Shown here in pieces: positions 59,430-64,000 of a DNA stretch of 64,000 nucleotides (the stretch's first letter is position 1; every line of letters starts with the position of its first letter). The stretch is taken from positions 2,496,501 through 2,560,500 of the forward strand of contig NC_019757.1 in assembly GCF_000317535.1 (NCBI RefSeq), read 5' to 3'. Both the position numbers and the translations under genes were made by a program. Below the pieces are notes generated by a model, which saw nothing but the letters and a program-made list of their open reading frames with translations, had not been told where the DNA came from and did not search any database. The DNA is from Cylindrospermum stagnale PCC 7417. GTDB taxonomy: Bacteria; Cyanobacteriota; Cyanobacteriia; Cyanobacteriales; Nostocaceae.

Positions 59430-59647
59430 TTAAAATTGGTTTTCCTGAATTATTGAAATTGAAATTTTTGCTGGTTTGGGATTTAAACAATATTCAATTG
59501 TAATTTCTTCCCAGGTAGCAGCATCGGTGTATCTTCTTAAATCTCCAACATTTCGCGTTGCTATTATTGTATAAATTCCCAATTTTTCTGATAAAGTTAT
59601 TGTTTGCGCTGCTAGTATCGCATCACCAGCAAGTTCTCTGCTATCTT
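59430..59647 (-). pseudogene. PIN-domain gene, 3' part cut off by the Tn3 element
   Basis: Read on the minus strand from the left transposon end the frame gives SRELAGDAILAAQTITLSEK, the C-terminal half of a PIN nuclease with the conserved Asp in GDAILAAQ, then TIIATRNVGDLRRY, and ends at TAA (59432-59430). The matching 5' part is at 63624-63962. Joined at the 5-bp duplication they restore 183 codons. This part has no start of its own. Confidence 0.92.
59643..59647. other. left target-site duplication ATCTT
   Basis: ATCTT abuts the GGGG end of the left inverted repeat and equals the ATCTT at 63624-63628. Tn3-family elements generate 5-bp duplications. Confidence 0.93.
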
Positions 59648-59684
59648 GGGGTATTGCAACGATTCGTAAAAAATTCCGCCATAT
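59648..59684 (+). repeat. left terminal inverted repeat (IRL)
   Basis: 37 bp, starting GGGGTATTGCAACGATTC and ending TTCCGCCATAT; 35 of 37 positions match the right repeat. Confidence 0.95.
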
Positions 59685-59722
59685 TGAGTGAAATGGTTAC
59701 ACACAAAGGATTGTAGATATAT

Positions 59723-60358
59723 TCAGTCCGTCCAAAAAGATTCAAATCTCTGGGGAGACATTTGCGTGTAACGCACGGTGTGGTGAATATTCTTGTGTCC
59801 CAAGTAATCTTGAATTGCTCTGGTATCATGACCCTGGGCTGCTAAATAGTAGCCACAAGCATGGCGCAATTGATGGGGATGAACTGGTTCAGTGATTCCA
59901 GCGCGCTCGCCAGCGCGTGCGATAATGTGACGAACGGCTCTAGTTGATAGTGGAGCTTTACGCTCAGACACAAAAACATAGGAAGTATCAGGATAATCGC
60001 GTTGCAATTGACGCAAGGCTCTTAATTCTGGAGCGCGTAACGGATGAACAGTATCATGCCCATGTTTGAGACGACGAATGTCGATATAACCCTCTGACAA
60101 ATCTACTTGTGACCACTTGAGCGCAACTAACTCAGCAGTACGAAGTCCATGCCGGAACATGAGTAAAATCATCGCTGCATCCCGCACAGAGTGCCGACCG
60201 ATAGAACGAGCCGCACAGATCATGGCATCAACTTCTTTCGGTCGCAAATATTCTCGTTGGCGTGTAGATGGGCGTTTAGCTGGTGGAGTCGAGTAGTTAG
60301 TTGACTTTGCCGAAAATGGAAGTTGAGTAGTGTGGGTAGACATGGGCCAAATCCTCAT
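59723..60358 (-). CDS. tyrosine recombinase of the Tn3 element
   Basis: The 211-residue protein is a phage-integrase/XerC-type recombinase probably acting as the transposon's resolvase (cointegrate resolution, like TnpI of Tn4430). The conserved catalytic residues are Arg in FRHGLRTAELVAL, the HPHQLRHACG box (H-x-x-R), the LGHKNIHHT box and the nucleophile Tyr in VRYTQMSP. It is shorter than typical integrases, lacking most of the N-terminal arm-binding domain, as in FimB-like proteins. The start may be the ATG at 60358 or the one at 60343, which has a better-placed GAGG. It is transcribed away from the transposase. Confidence 0.9.
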   Translation of the reverse strand: MRIWPMSTHTTQLPFSAKSTNYSTPPAKRPSTRQREYLRPKEVDAMICAARSIGRHSVRDAAMILLMFRHGLRTAELVALKWSQVDLSEGYIDIRRLKHGHDTVHPLRAPELRALRQLQRDYPDTSYVFVSERKAPLSTRAVRHIIARAGERAGITEPVHPHQLRHACGYYLAAQGHDTRAIQDYLGHKNIHHTVRYTQMSPQRFESFWTD

Positions 60359-60384
60359 GTCTTAGTTGCTATCTCCAGCATACA

Positions 60385-60411
60385 TTGCCTAAAAAGAGAC
60401 GAACTAGGCAA
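60385..60411. other. candidate recombination (resolution) site
   Basis: The inverted repeat TTGCCTA (60385-60391) and TAGGCAA (60405-60411) with a 13-nt spacer lies between the divergent recombinase and transposase genes, where Tn3 elements carry their internal resolution site. The arms are short, so this is a suggestion only. The region must also contain both promoters. Confidence 0.4.
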
Positions 60412-60496
60412 AGTTATAAATTACCTCAAACGAGAGGCTTGTATCTTTTAAACTTAAATTCGCACTACCCCTTAATCATAGAGAATTTTAACGTCC

Positions 60497-63400
60497 GTGC
60501 CAAGTCTTGCTGAAACTGCCTATCCCCGACTGAAAAACCAGATTAGTTCCAAAGAACTCTTAGAAATTTATACCCCAACTGACCTTGAACTTCAGTTTGC
60601 CAGCCAACATACCAAAGGTAAAGTTGCCAAATTAGGTTTTTTAGTGCTGTTAAAAACTTTTCAGCGATTGGGATACTTTGTTTTAGTCAAAAATGTGCCT
60701 GATGCAATTATTAAGCACATTGTTGAGGCAGTTAAAATCAACTTTATTCCCCAAAAGTTGGAGAATTATGATAGATCAGGAACACGCTGGCGACATTTAA
60801 CTCTAATTCGGGATTATCTCAAAATCATCCCCTATGGTGTCGGTGCAAGGCGAATTATCGTCAAATCAATGGCACAAGCAGCACAAACCAAAAATGACCT
60901 AGCTGACTTAATCAATGTAGCGATTGAAGAATTAGTTCATCACCAGTATGAATTACCTATTTTCACAACTTTAGTTCGTGCAGCTAGAAGAGTTAGAGCA
61001 ACTATTTCTCAAATCTTTTATCGACAAGTAGCAGATGGTTTAAATCTAGAAACTAAGGTCATGCTAGATGGGTTATTGGAGACGAGTATTCTCAATCTCA
61101 AAACTCCTTGGTATGAACTCAAACAAGACGCTGGTAAACCCATACTCAAGAATTTAAAAGCATTAGTCGAGCGGTTGAAATGGATAGATGAAATTAATCC
61201 AGCTCAGAAACTATTAACAGATATTCCTGATAGCAAGGTTAAATATTTTGCAGCCGAAGCTATGACCTTAGATGCGGCACGCATGAAAGAGCTAGAACTT
61301 AATAAACGTTATACATTGACATTAACTTTAATTGCCATTCAAGCCGCAAGAACACTGGATGATATTGCGGAGATGTTCATTAAAAGAATGCTCAAGATTC
61401 ATTTCTATGGACAGGAGGCATTAACGCGTTATCGTCAAGAACACCAAGCCAGAAGTGACAGATTAATTACGACCTTAAGAGATGTGGTAATTGCTTACTC
61501 CAGTGAAGGTCAAATCTCCCAAAAATTCACTGCTATAGAAACAGTTATTGGCGAATCTCCCGAACAGCTTCTAGAAGATTGTGAAGCTCATATTGCCTAT
61601 GCAGGCAATAATTATTATCCTTTTCTGTGGCGATTTTATAAAAGTCATCGTTCTACTCTCTTTCAGATTCTCAGATGGGTAAAACTCCAGTCAACTACCC
61701 AAGATACTTCCTTAGAAGAAGCAATTGAATTTTTGAGTAAGCATCAAGGAAGCCGCAAAGATTGGTTAAAAACAATCATAGTTGAAAACCCAGGTACTGC
61801 TGAAGAAAAAACCAGGAATTTACTCAACTTAGATTGGATACCTACGAAGTGGTGGCAATTAATCACCAACCAGAAAAACCGTCATTCTTACCCCACACGA
61901 ATTAATCGTAAGCATTTTGAGGTTTGTGTTTTTTCACAGGTGATGTGGGAACTGAAATCAGGAGATTTATATGTAGAAGGAAGTGATGCCTTTGCTGATT
62001 ACCGAAAACAGCAGATTTCTTGGTCTGATTATAAGGCGACAGTTGCTAACTATGGAGAATTAGTCAATTTACCTGTTGAAGGAAAAGCCTTTGTTGTTCA
62101 TTTAAAAGAGTGGCTTTCTCAGGTAGCATCCCAGACAGATAAATCTTTTCCTAAAAATGAGTTTGTTCGCCTAGAAGATGGCAAACCAATTATTCAAAAA
62201 ACTAACAAGAAGGTTAACCAGGAAAAAGTAAAATTGATTGAGTCTCTCATCAGAGAACGGCTGCACCCAGTTAACATACTGGATATTCTCACCGATACAG
62301 AACTCTGGTTAAACTGGACTCGTTTCTTTCACCCAATTTCAGGATATGAAGCTAAAATCGACCATCCAATTGCTCGTTATCTAACTACCACTTTTTGTTA
62401 TGGTTGTCATTTAGGAGCTTCTCAAACAGCCCGTTCTTTAGGAGCGTTTGACCATCGACAAGTGGCTTGGGTTAATCAGCGTCATATTACTGAAGAAACC
62501 TTAGATAAAGCGATTACTTCAATTATTAACGCTTATAATCGGTTTTCTCTGCCTAAATTTTGGGGAACTGGAAAACGAGCTTCAGCCGATGGGACAAAGT
62601 GGGATATTTATGAGCAGAATCTTTTAGCAGAATACCACATTAGGTATGGTGGTTATGGAGGCATTGGTTATTATCATGTTTCTGATACTTATATTGCCTT
62701 ATTTAGTCATTTTATTCCTTGTGGTGTATGGGAAGCCGTTTATATTCTTGATGGTTTGTTAAATAATCAATCAGAAATTCAACCTGACGTTATTCATGCT
62801 GATACTCAAGGTCAAAGTGCGCCTGTATTTGGGTTGGCTTATTTGTTGGGAATCAATTTAATGCCTCGCATTCGCAACTGGCATGATTTAAAGTTGTATC
62901 GTCCTACTAAGGAGTCTCGTTACCACCATATTGATGGTCTCTTTTCTGATGTAGTCGATTGGGATTTGATTGAGACTCATTTGCCAGATATGTTACGGGT
63001 TGTTCTTTCAATTAAAGCGGGAAAATTTACCGCCTCAACCATTTTACGTAAGTTAGGAACTTATAGCAGACATAATCGACTCTATCAGTCATTCTCTGAG
63101 CTAGGGCTAGTGATTCGCACAGGATTTTTGTTGTCATATTTATCTGATGAAAAGTTACGCCTTACCATCCAAGCTGCATTAAATAAGAGTGAATCTTTTA
63201 ATGGTTTTACCAAATGGGTCAGTTTCGGTGGATCAGGTTTAATTCCTAGTAATAATCGAGATGAACAACGCAAGATGATTAAGTATAACCATTTGGTTTC
63301 AAATTGCTTAATTTTCTATAATGTCTTTGAAATGACGAGGATTTTGCAGGAATTAATTGCTGAAGGGTATGCCATTGATGAGGAGATTATGGGGGCGTTA

Positions 63401-63520
63401 AGTCCATATCTGACTAAACATATCAACCGATTTGGACGCTATAGCCTGGATTTAAATCGCAAACCCCCAGATGTTGATTATGATCTGTCTCTAATTCCCA
63501 TGGATGTAGATAATTCTTGA
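60497..63520 (+). CDS. tnpA: Tn3 family transposase
   Basis: The 1007-residue DDE transposase has the family's usual length (about 960-1010). The N-terminal part is the DNA-binding DUF4158-like region (QFASQHTKGKVAKLGFLVLLK). The catalytic residues are Asp in ASADGTKWD (about residue 697), Asp in VIHADTQGQSAPVFGLAYL and Glu in LNKSESFNGFTKW, the normal Tn3 arrangement. The start is a GTG at 60497. No frameshift or stop interrupts it. It mediates replicative transposition by cointegrate formation, to be resolved by the adjacent recombinase. Confidence 0.95.
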   Translation: MPSLAETAYPRLKNQISSKELLEIYTPTDLELQFASQHTKGKVAKLGFLVLLKTFQRLGYFVLVKNVPDAIIKHIVEAVKINFIPQKLENYDRSGTRWRHLTLIRDYLKIIPYGVGARRIIVKSMAQAAQTKNDLADLINVAIEELVHHQYELPIFTTLVRAARRVRATISQIFYRQVADGLNLETKVMLDGLLETSILNLKTPWYELKQDAGKPILKNLKALVERLKWIDEINPAQKLLTDIPDSKVKYFAAEAMTLDAARMKELELNKRYTLTLTLIAIQAARTLDDIAEMFIKRMLKIHFYGQEALTRYRQEHQARSDRLITTLRDVVIAYSSEGQISQKFTAIETVIGESPEQLLEDCEAHIAYAGNNYYPFLWRFYKSHRSTLFQILRWVKLQSTTQDTSLEEAIEFLSKHQGSRKDWLKTIIVENPGTAEEKTRNLLNLDWIPTKWWQLITNQKNRHSYPTRINRKHFEVCVFSQVMWELKSGDLYVEGSDAFADYRKQQISWSDYKATVANYGELVNLPVEGKAFVVHLKEWLSQVASQTDKSFPKNEFVRLEDGKPIIQKTNKKVNQEKVKLIESLIRERLHPVNILDILTDTELWLNWTRFFHPISGYEAKIDHPIARYLTTTFCYGCHLGASQTARSLGAFDHRQVAWVNQRHITEETLDKAITSIINAYNRFSLPKFWGTGKRASADGTKWDIYEQNLLAEYHIRYGGYGGIGYYHVSDTYIALFSHFIPCGVWEAVYILDGLLNNQSEIQPDVIHADTQGQSAPVFGLAYLLGINLMPRIRNWHDLKLYRPTKESRYHHIDGLFSDVVDWDLIETHLPDMLRVVLSIKAGKFTASTILRKLGTYSRHNRLYQSFSELGLVIRTGFLLSYLSDEKLRLTIQAALNKSESFNGFTKWVSFGGSGLIPSNNRDEQRKMIKYNHLVSNCLIFYNVFEMTRILQELIAEGYAIDEEIMGALSPYLTKHINRFGRYSLDLNRKPPDVDYDLSLIPMDVDNS

Positions 63521-63586
63521 GATAGGCATAAGTGAGGAAAGAGTTATGGTATCGCTAAAACTCTCTCTGGGCAAGCGTTTCATGCG

Positions 63587-63623
63587 ATATGGCGGAATTT
63601 TTCATGAATCGTTGCAATACCCC
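63587..63623 (-). repeat. right terminal inverted repeat (IRR)
   Basis: 37 bp ending in CCCC on the plus strand; the reverse complement starts GGGGTATTGCAACGATTC and differs from the left repeat at two positions. Confidence 0.95.
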
Positions 63624-63628
63624 ATCTT
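63624..63628. other. right target-site duplication ATCTT
   Basis: This is the same pentamer as 59643-59647, directly next to the CCCC end of the right inverted repeat. Confidence 0.93.
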
Positions 63629-63962
63629 CAGTTGATTGATTTGTATTTTTTGCCCAAGCCCATAAACTAGCTGCTTTAAGCATTGCTTCTGTGTTTATGG
63701 GTAAATACATTAGTCCTTGTTTTCCTAAACTATCTAGCCTTTGTAATTTCTCAAGTCTAGTAGTTTCTTTTATTGGATCTTTATTGACACAAAGCAATTT
63801 CCGCCTAGACTCATAGTCTGCTATTTCTGGTACTACAACTGCAATATTATTAGCTACTAACTTTTTTACCCAACTTATGCAATCTAGTACTTGTGAGCTT
63901 TTTGGTCTTTCCACTAGGATAGATAAAATATTGGTATCTAATACAACTATTGCTGAGTTCAT
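63624..63962 (-). pseudogene. PIN-domain (VapC-like) gene, 5' part
   Basis: The first 113 codons of a PIN-domain protein start at ATG 63962: VVLDTNILSILVERP (first active-site Asp), then VVVPEIADYESRRKL and LPINTEAMLKAASLWAWAK, ending with Thr-Glu-Asp at the transposon. In the present sequence the frame runs on into the element for 22 foreign residues and stops at 63557-63555. Most PIN proteins of this kind are ribonuclease toxins paired with an antitoxin upstream, but the window ends 38 nt before the start, so no partner is visible. The final acidic residues are on the other fragment, so the product should be inactive. Confidence 0.92.
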
Positions 63963-64000
63963 TTAATTTTGATTAATTAATCTTCACCTAGCGAATGTAT

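Follow-up and report, generated by a model that had tools for sequence, protein, structure and literature searches.

The window, that is, the whole stretch of 64,000 nucleotides analysed, contains a complete Tn3-family transposon that interrupts a PIN-like gene, and its transposase and its recombinase module are shown by sequence comparison to come from different transposon lineages. The transposon is regarded as chimeric because the transposase and recombinase trees conflict, the DNA homology of the module stops at a putative recombination site, and relatives of the transposase carry other resolution systems. The features of the region are as follows.

59430..59645, minus strand: 3′ part of the PIN-like gene, 70 codons after the duplication (codons 59642-59433, stop TAA 59430-59432)
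59643..59647: left copy of the target site duplication (TSD), 5 bp, ATCTT, exact repeat of the right copy
59648..63623, plus strand: complete Tn3-family transposon, 3976 bp, with terminal inverted repeats (TIRs), TSD and two further full copies at 99.97% identity
59648..59684, plus strand: left TIR, 37 bp, 2 mismatches
59723..60358, minus strand: FimB/FimE-like tyrosine recombinase, 211 aa, presumed cointegrate resolvase (TnpI-like), PF00589 (E-value 1e-44)
59723..60417, minus strand: exchanged module (recombinase and core site), with 88-91% identical DNA in transposons whose tnpA DNA is unrelated
60381..60415: putative recombinase core site, 35 bp, inverted 11-bp arms and 13-bp spacer, TACATTGCCTA-N13-TAGGCAAAGTT
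60497..63520, plus strand: tnpA, intact Tn3-family DDE transposase, 1007 aa, NF033527 and PF01526
63587..63623, minus strand: right TIR, 37 bp
63624..63628: right copy of the TSD, 5 bp, ATCTT, exact repeat of the left copy
63624..63962, minus strand: 5′ part of the PIN-like gene, 113 codons, reading on for 22 codons into the transposon

Tn3-family transposons encode a large DDE transposase, are bounded by TIRs of ~38 bp that typically start with GGGG, and generate a 5-bp target duplication. The TIR sequence of the window element is GGGGTATTGC, with 35/37 matches between the two ends and 55/69 across the extended repeat. Only tnpA and the divergent recombinase gene are encoded, and there are no passenger genes. 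On all structural features tested, including its predicted proteins, the element is a member of the Tn3 family. The first-pass annotation had described a complete Tn3-family element with 37-bp TIRs differing at two positions, a perfect ATCTT duplication and intact transposase and recombinase genes, and this description is reproduced by the TIRs, the exact duplication copies, the Tn3 transposase profile, the two further full copies, and the full reading frames with catalytic residues present in both proteins. The range 59430-63962 that it gave for the element is instead the outline of the interrupted gene; the transposon itself occupies 59648-63623.

TnpA matches NF033527 with 669 bits (cut-off 500) and PF01526 with the E-value 5e-151. 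Its residues D698, D769 and E899 correspond in the alignment to residues 679, 751 and 881 of the Tn4430 TnpA, the catalytic DDE residues of that protein. The similarity to the Tn4430 TnpA is just 247 bits over 967 aligned residues. The closest group is composed of the transposases of Pleurocapsa sp. CCALA 161 and genome G059 (68-69% identity), and the window TnpA joins this group in the maximum likelihood tree with an SH-aLRT support of 99. It is 45% identical, over ~995 aa, to the TnXax1-type transposase, and TnXax1 is assigned to the Tn4651 subgroup (PMC7157771). By TnpA similarity, measured as pairwise identity, the window element appears nearer to the Tn4651 side.

The recombinase is a short protein of 211 aa whose Phage_integrase domain starts at residue 37. 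Recombinases of the FimB/FimE type have ~200 aa and comprise little more than the catalytic domain. All six expected catalytic positions are present (R73, K98, H162, R165, H188 and Y197). Its best NCBIfam model is a FimE-type invertase (E-value 1e-51), and the two top models, PRK09871 and PRK09870, are both scored under their curated cut-offs. Judged by these profiles, the protein is Fim-like, not a FimB/FimE member.

The putative core site is located 26 nt upstream of the recombinase start. Among relatives, 23 distinct homologous sites gave the consensus AACWTTGCC(T/G)A-N13-TAGGCAAWGTA, and when start positions follow the numbering of the window protein, the spacing between site and start is 25-26 nt in nearly all of them, with 24 and 34 nt observed once each. 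In several relatives the two arms carry paired changes, TTGCCGA occurring together with TCGGCAA. Because the spacing is near-constant, the arms are symmetric and the homology boundary described below falls at the same point, 60381-60415 is likely to be the crossover site of the recombinase. The exact core-site pattern occurs in the 7.6 Mb genome in the three copies of the element and once on contig C1. This orphan perfect site (C1 111635-111661, L131) has extended arms, no recombinase was detected nearby, and it is possibly a remnant of a lost element. A TIME-like miniature element of 358 bp (C2 5900970-5901327, L014 1471-1828) combines ends of the same TIR family with a core site bearing one mismatch, and end-only matches of this TIR family are scattered across other genomes of the host's family.

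The recombinase has a different set of closest relatives from that of TnpA, a discordance that the first-pass annotation had not noted. It is 90-92% identical to recombinases that lie beside transposases only 24-28% identical to the window TnpA, in convergent orientation. At the DNA level, positions 80-770 of the element are 88.6% identical to the plasmid pNOS3756_1 of Nostoc sp. NIES-3756, 90.5% to genome G066 and 88.2% to genome G085, and all three matches stop at element position 770, which corresponds to window position 60417. In the transposase siblings of Pleurocapsa sp. CCALA 161 and G059, by contrast, the recombinases are 66-69% identical and co-directional with tnpA. In the maximum likelihood tree the window recombinase joins G066, NIES-3756 and G085 (96/94), and a tree in which it was forced to follow the TnpA siblings was rejected (AU p = 0.00027). 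The recombinases of the convergent group are themselves non-monophyletic (p 0.0009). If, with vertical descent of both genes, the short recombinase had merely changed more slowly than TnpA, no capture of the module would be required; the weak support that leaves 9 of the 14 deep branches of the recombinase tree open would agree with such a history, but the lower identity to the sibling recombinases than to those beside the distant transposases, the rejection by the AU test and the abrupt stop of DNA homology at the site make it highly improbable. Since the deeper recombinase branches are poorly resolved, only the exchange in the window element and the non-monophyly of the convergent group are firmly supported.

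Two simple routes to the present arrangement were considered. Mere inversion of the module at its present location, between a pair of core sites in inverted orientation, is rejected, since only one complete site is present in the element and the recombinase falls in another lineage. A single exchange at the site, between one element with convergent and one with co-directional genes, would not by itself yield the observed gene order.

Relatives of the window TnpA at 57-70% identity were compared for their resolution systems. Two of them (L019 and L087) encode a short recombinase co-directional with tnpA. Four (L017, L020, L022 and L023) encode a divergent tyrosine recombinase of ~300 aa together with a protein of 151-155 aa containing HTH and double-zinc-ribbon domains, tested in L017; this pair is possibly a helper-assisted resolution module. 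Another (L026) encodes a divergent serine resolvase. In a second transposase lineage, 44-47% identical to the window TnpA, the short recombinase is mostly co-directional (TIOX110, Gloeothece 7424 and 7822, and Geminocystis), with one divergent case in Calothrix 4101. In a third lineage it is convergent. Four relatives are bounded by TIRs with perfect duplications. It is quite possible, if short of probable, that the recombinase and its 35-bp core site circulate as a plug-in module for resolution in no fewer than three cyanobacterial Tn3 transposase lineages that are deeply separated, in three gene orders, that recombination at the site helps create hybrids, and that one TnpA lineage has had this cassette, a serine resolvase and, with a helper, a long tyrosine recombinase.

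The function of the recombinase as a cointegrate resolvase is presumed from its position and from the analogy with TnpI. It may instead be a hitch-hiking invertase or plasmid-multimer recombinase, with cointegrates resolved by host recombination. The top profile is a FimE-type invertase rather than TnpI, and some plasmid relatives have the site with no tnpA nearby, such as Chondrocystis plasmid2 (L082). Against this, the recombinase and one conserved site are retained within the TIRs of compact elements that belong to three transposase lineages, and the recombinase occupies the place that serine resolvases or long tyrosine recombinases take in relatives. Nor does the element contain a second inverted site: besides the core site, the motif TTGCCTA is found only at element position 1946, inside tnpA, and has no partner arm there. 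An invertase or multimer recombinase is therefore considered unlikely, and resolution of cointegrates is the preferred role.

The full 3976-bp element is present in three copies in the genome of Cylindrospermum stagnale PCC 7417, with one base differing overall. The second chromosomal copy (C2 6296731-6300706) has its own perfect duplication, TTGTT. The third copy (contig C4 145173-149148) has no target duplication and is flanked by GTTTT and ATATT. These two copies are mutually identical, and the window copy differs from them by one SNP at element position 336, which places Ser at residue 126 of the recombinase where the other two copies, as well as the nearest homologues, have Pro. Ser is also found at this residue in family members from Stanieria, Geminocystis and G050, and so it need not inactivate the recombinase. 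That the same 3976 bp recur at two other places in the genome, one of them with a perfect duplication that differs from ATCTT, indicates that the insertion is not a chance arrangement, and three full copies with one base difference point to recent transposition. The first-pass annotation had inferred a recent insertion and suggested a search for other copies, and the two further copies on C2 and C4 are in agreement with its inference. Given the near-identical copies and the intact catalytic residues of the transposase and the recombinase, the element is plausibly still mobile.

Contig C4 contains N gaps and partial copies of the element, and the assembly has scaffold gaps (L013). Because of these gaps and the missing duplication of the C4 copy, the copy number is uncertain, as is the order on C4. 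The extra copies might thus be assembly duplicates, in which case recent activity would be overstated, and one left-end fragment indeed abuts a gap of 100 N. However, the flanks of the copies differ, a separate perfect duplication accompanies each of two copies, and one SNP is private to the window copy, so that assembly duplication is very unlikely and recent transposition is retained as the explanation.

Several further insertions and derivatives were observed. A gene for a 74-aa protein of unknown family (L011 1492-1716) has its start 15 bp downstream of the second chromosomal copy. The C4 copy (L010 1674-5649) cuts a gene of the 23S-rRNA-intervening-sequence type whose continuation is not seen on the far side; the one-sided gene and the missing TSD suggest recombination between copies. 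An 803-bp palindromic derivative (C4 103272-104074, L012 1773-2575) consists of two facing left ends of 343 and 462 bp with no target duplication, which could have arisen by deletion between two copies in inverted orientation or as an artefact of assembly. Solitary TIR remnants are present at C4 318727-318768 and 54006-54048, within a larger duplicated stretch of C4. A 196-bp left-end fragment at C4 175315 was examined as a deletion derivative and set aside as uninformative, as it is the fragment that abuts the 100-N scaffold gap.

The PIN-like gene is divided by the transposon into 113 and 70 codons, which form one frame of 183 codons when one copy of the duplication is kept. The two halves were searched separately, without joining the flanks, and 18 uninterrupted homologues of the gene halves were read. 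In G031 and G020, two genomes of the same family, both halves match one continuous ORF, with identities of 42-43% for the N-terminal half and of 64% and 47% for the C-terminal half. In G002, a genome of the same genus, 154 bp of the 3′ flank (88% identity) are joined directly to 47 bp of the 5′ flank (91%) at the orthologous locus, and unrelated DNA with no transposon lies beyond the joined remnants. This locus adjoins the same gene as in the window, with 90% protein identity; we presume from its sequence that the gene is HIT-like. The continuous homologues and the adjacent remnants in G002 indicate that the two flanks were once one gene at one place.

The G002 junction (contig C61, L166 945-1137) is a deletion scar across the orthologous PIN gene, spanning the point where the transposon lies in the window. 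The orthologous gene has decayed by deletion in this sister species too, either through an independent event or through loss of an inserted element and its flanking DNA in one step. As the G002 locus is deleted through, an intact copy at the exact empty site was not found within the genus, and in G001, also of the same genus, no PIN sequence was found in the near flanks of the ortholog of the HIT-like gene.

Alternatively, the flanks may represent two different PIN genes that were joined when transposon copies recombined, an event that may also explain the C4 copy with its missing duplication. The genome has several PIN paralogues, which would provide the partners. This origin is nevertheless hardly credible, considering the perfect in-frame ATCTT duplication, the matches of both halves to the same ORFs, and the adjacent and correctly ordered remnants in G002. 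A single gene is the reading that is followed here. The first-pass annotation had likewise proposed one interrupted gene, restored to 183 codons by deleting the element with one duplication copy, and had named the absence of any uninterrupted homologue, or an origin of the flanks from two PIN genes, as evidence that would speak against it; neither was found. Its proposed search for the empty site yielded uninterrupted homologues and the transposon-free G002 locus, but not an intact gene in the same genus.

The assignment to the PIN family is moderately supported by sequence profiles: 8/12 uninterrupted homologues match PF01850, with the best E-value 1.4e-6. A Pfam search with the two gene halves returned no match, and a PDB search with the profile of PIN homologues returned no sequence match. 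The broken product is composed of the first 113 codons and 22 codons from the transposon, without the conserved C-terminal GDxILAAQ stretch, and for this reason loss of function is likely. Lacking this acidic C-terminal motif, the truncated protein is most likely inactive.

VapC-like toxins combine a PIN domain with a small antitoxin gene directly upstream. Here, beyond position 64000, a gene of 264 aa (L009 6478-7272) ends 14 bp upstream of the PIN start. In both G031 and G020, the intact PIN gene has a homologue of this gene upstream; the two homologues are 244 and 289 aa long. In the three genomes (L009 6478-7272, L032 1841-2575 and L033 619-1488), the upstream proteins of 244-289 aa share the C-terminal motif LLxESxxRIHxL. 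No family was matched by the 264-aa gene in Pfam, NCBIfam or PADLOC. Its product is a possible antitoxin, and together with the PIN-like gene it is a candidate toxin-antitoxin-like operon. The first-pass annotation had described a toxin-like PIN gene switched off and had pointed beyond 64000 for an antitoxin; the toxin-like label depends on weak PIN matches, loss of function is likely, and a conserved upstream gene is present, but it belongs to no recognised antitoxin family.

Taken together, it is very probable that a passenger-free Tn3-family transposon entered the PIN gene by replicative transposition, that resolution is carried out by the recombinase at the core site, and that the module was captured from another lineage. 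Cointegrate formation by replicative transposition is established for the Tn3 family. TnpA would bind the TIRs, and replicative transposition would join donor and target into a cointegrate with two copies of the element. The insertion duplicated 5 bp and cut the PIN protein after codon 113. The short tyrosine recombinase would then separate the cointegrate by recombination between the two 35-bp core sites, one of which precedes the recombinase gene in each element copy. As the site lies 26 nt upstream of the start and between divergent genes, binding of the recombinase would probably regulate its own promoter and also the divergent neighbour gene. Gene regulation through site binding was reported for TnpI of Tn5401 (PMC7157771). 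Recombinase and site would constitute an exchangeable resolution cassette, captured in divergent orientation beside a tnpA that has other resolution systems among its relatives.

The element resembles Tn4430, Tn5401 and TnBth4 in that a Tn3-family TnpA is paired with a tyrosine recombinase whose gene is preceded by an inverted-repeat core site. No passenger genes are known from Tn4430 (PMC7157771), and the window element likewise has none. However, its TnpA is distant, its gene order is divergent while theirs is co-linear, and no separate N-terminal SAM-like domain was found in the 211-aa recombinase. Accessory direct repeats of the core motif, like DR1 and DR2 of Tn4430, were not found in the element, where diverged repeats could escape detection. 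For these reasons (distant TnpA, short recombinase, different gene order and accessory repeats not found), it is not placed in the Tn4430 subgroup.

With the Tn4651 subgroup, represented by TnXax1 with TnpS and TnpT, it shares 45% TnpA identity and a divergent arrangement in which the site is placed between the recombinase gene and the gene next to it, but it has no TnpT-like helper and its recombinase is short. The Tn4651 plan seems better matched by the four relatives that encode a ~300-aa recombinase together with a helper-like protein. The elements of pNOS3756_1 and of Crinalium plasmid pCRI9333.06 carry the same module at 88.6% and 78% DNA identity, whereas their TnpA is 24% identical, their TIRs are different (GGCGTAAATAGAAGG) and their gene order is convergent. 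The elements of Pleurocapsa sp. CCALA 161 and of G059 (contig C430, complete, TSD ATGTC) have the sibling TnpA and related TIRs, but in them the site lies on the TIR side.

In a collection of 190 members of the Tn3 family, just three elements encode a TnpI-type resolvase (PMC7157771). No description of the cyanobacterial Tn3 group with the short recombinase was found in the literature searched outside subscription journals. The disruption of the PIN gene is a routine outcome of transposition, and the interest of the element comes from its hybrid origin and its exchangeable recombinase/site module. In contrast to the three TnpI elements, there is in cyanobacteria a whole set of Tn3 elements with a short tyrosine recombinase and a sharply defined site. 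They offer a compact recombinase/site pair for cyanobacteria, and the exchange of transposition and resolution functions as modules can be tested directly on their natural pairs.
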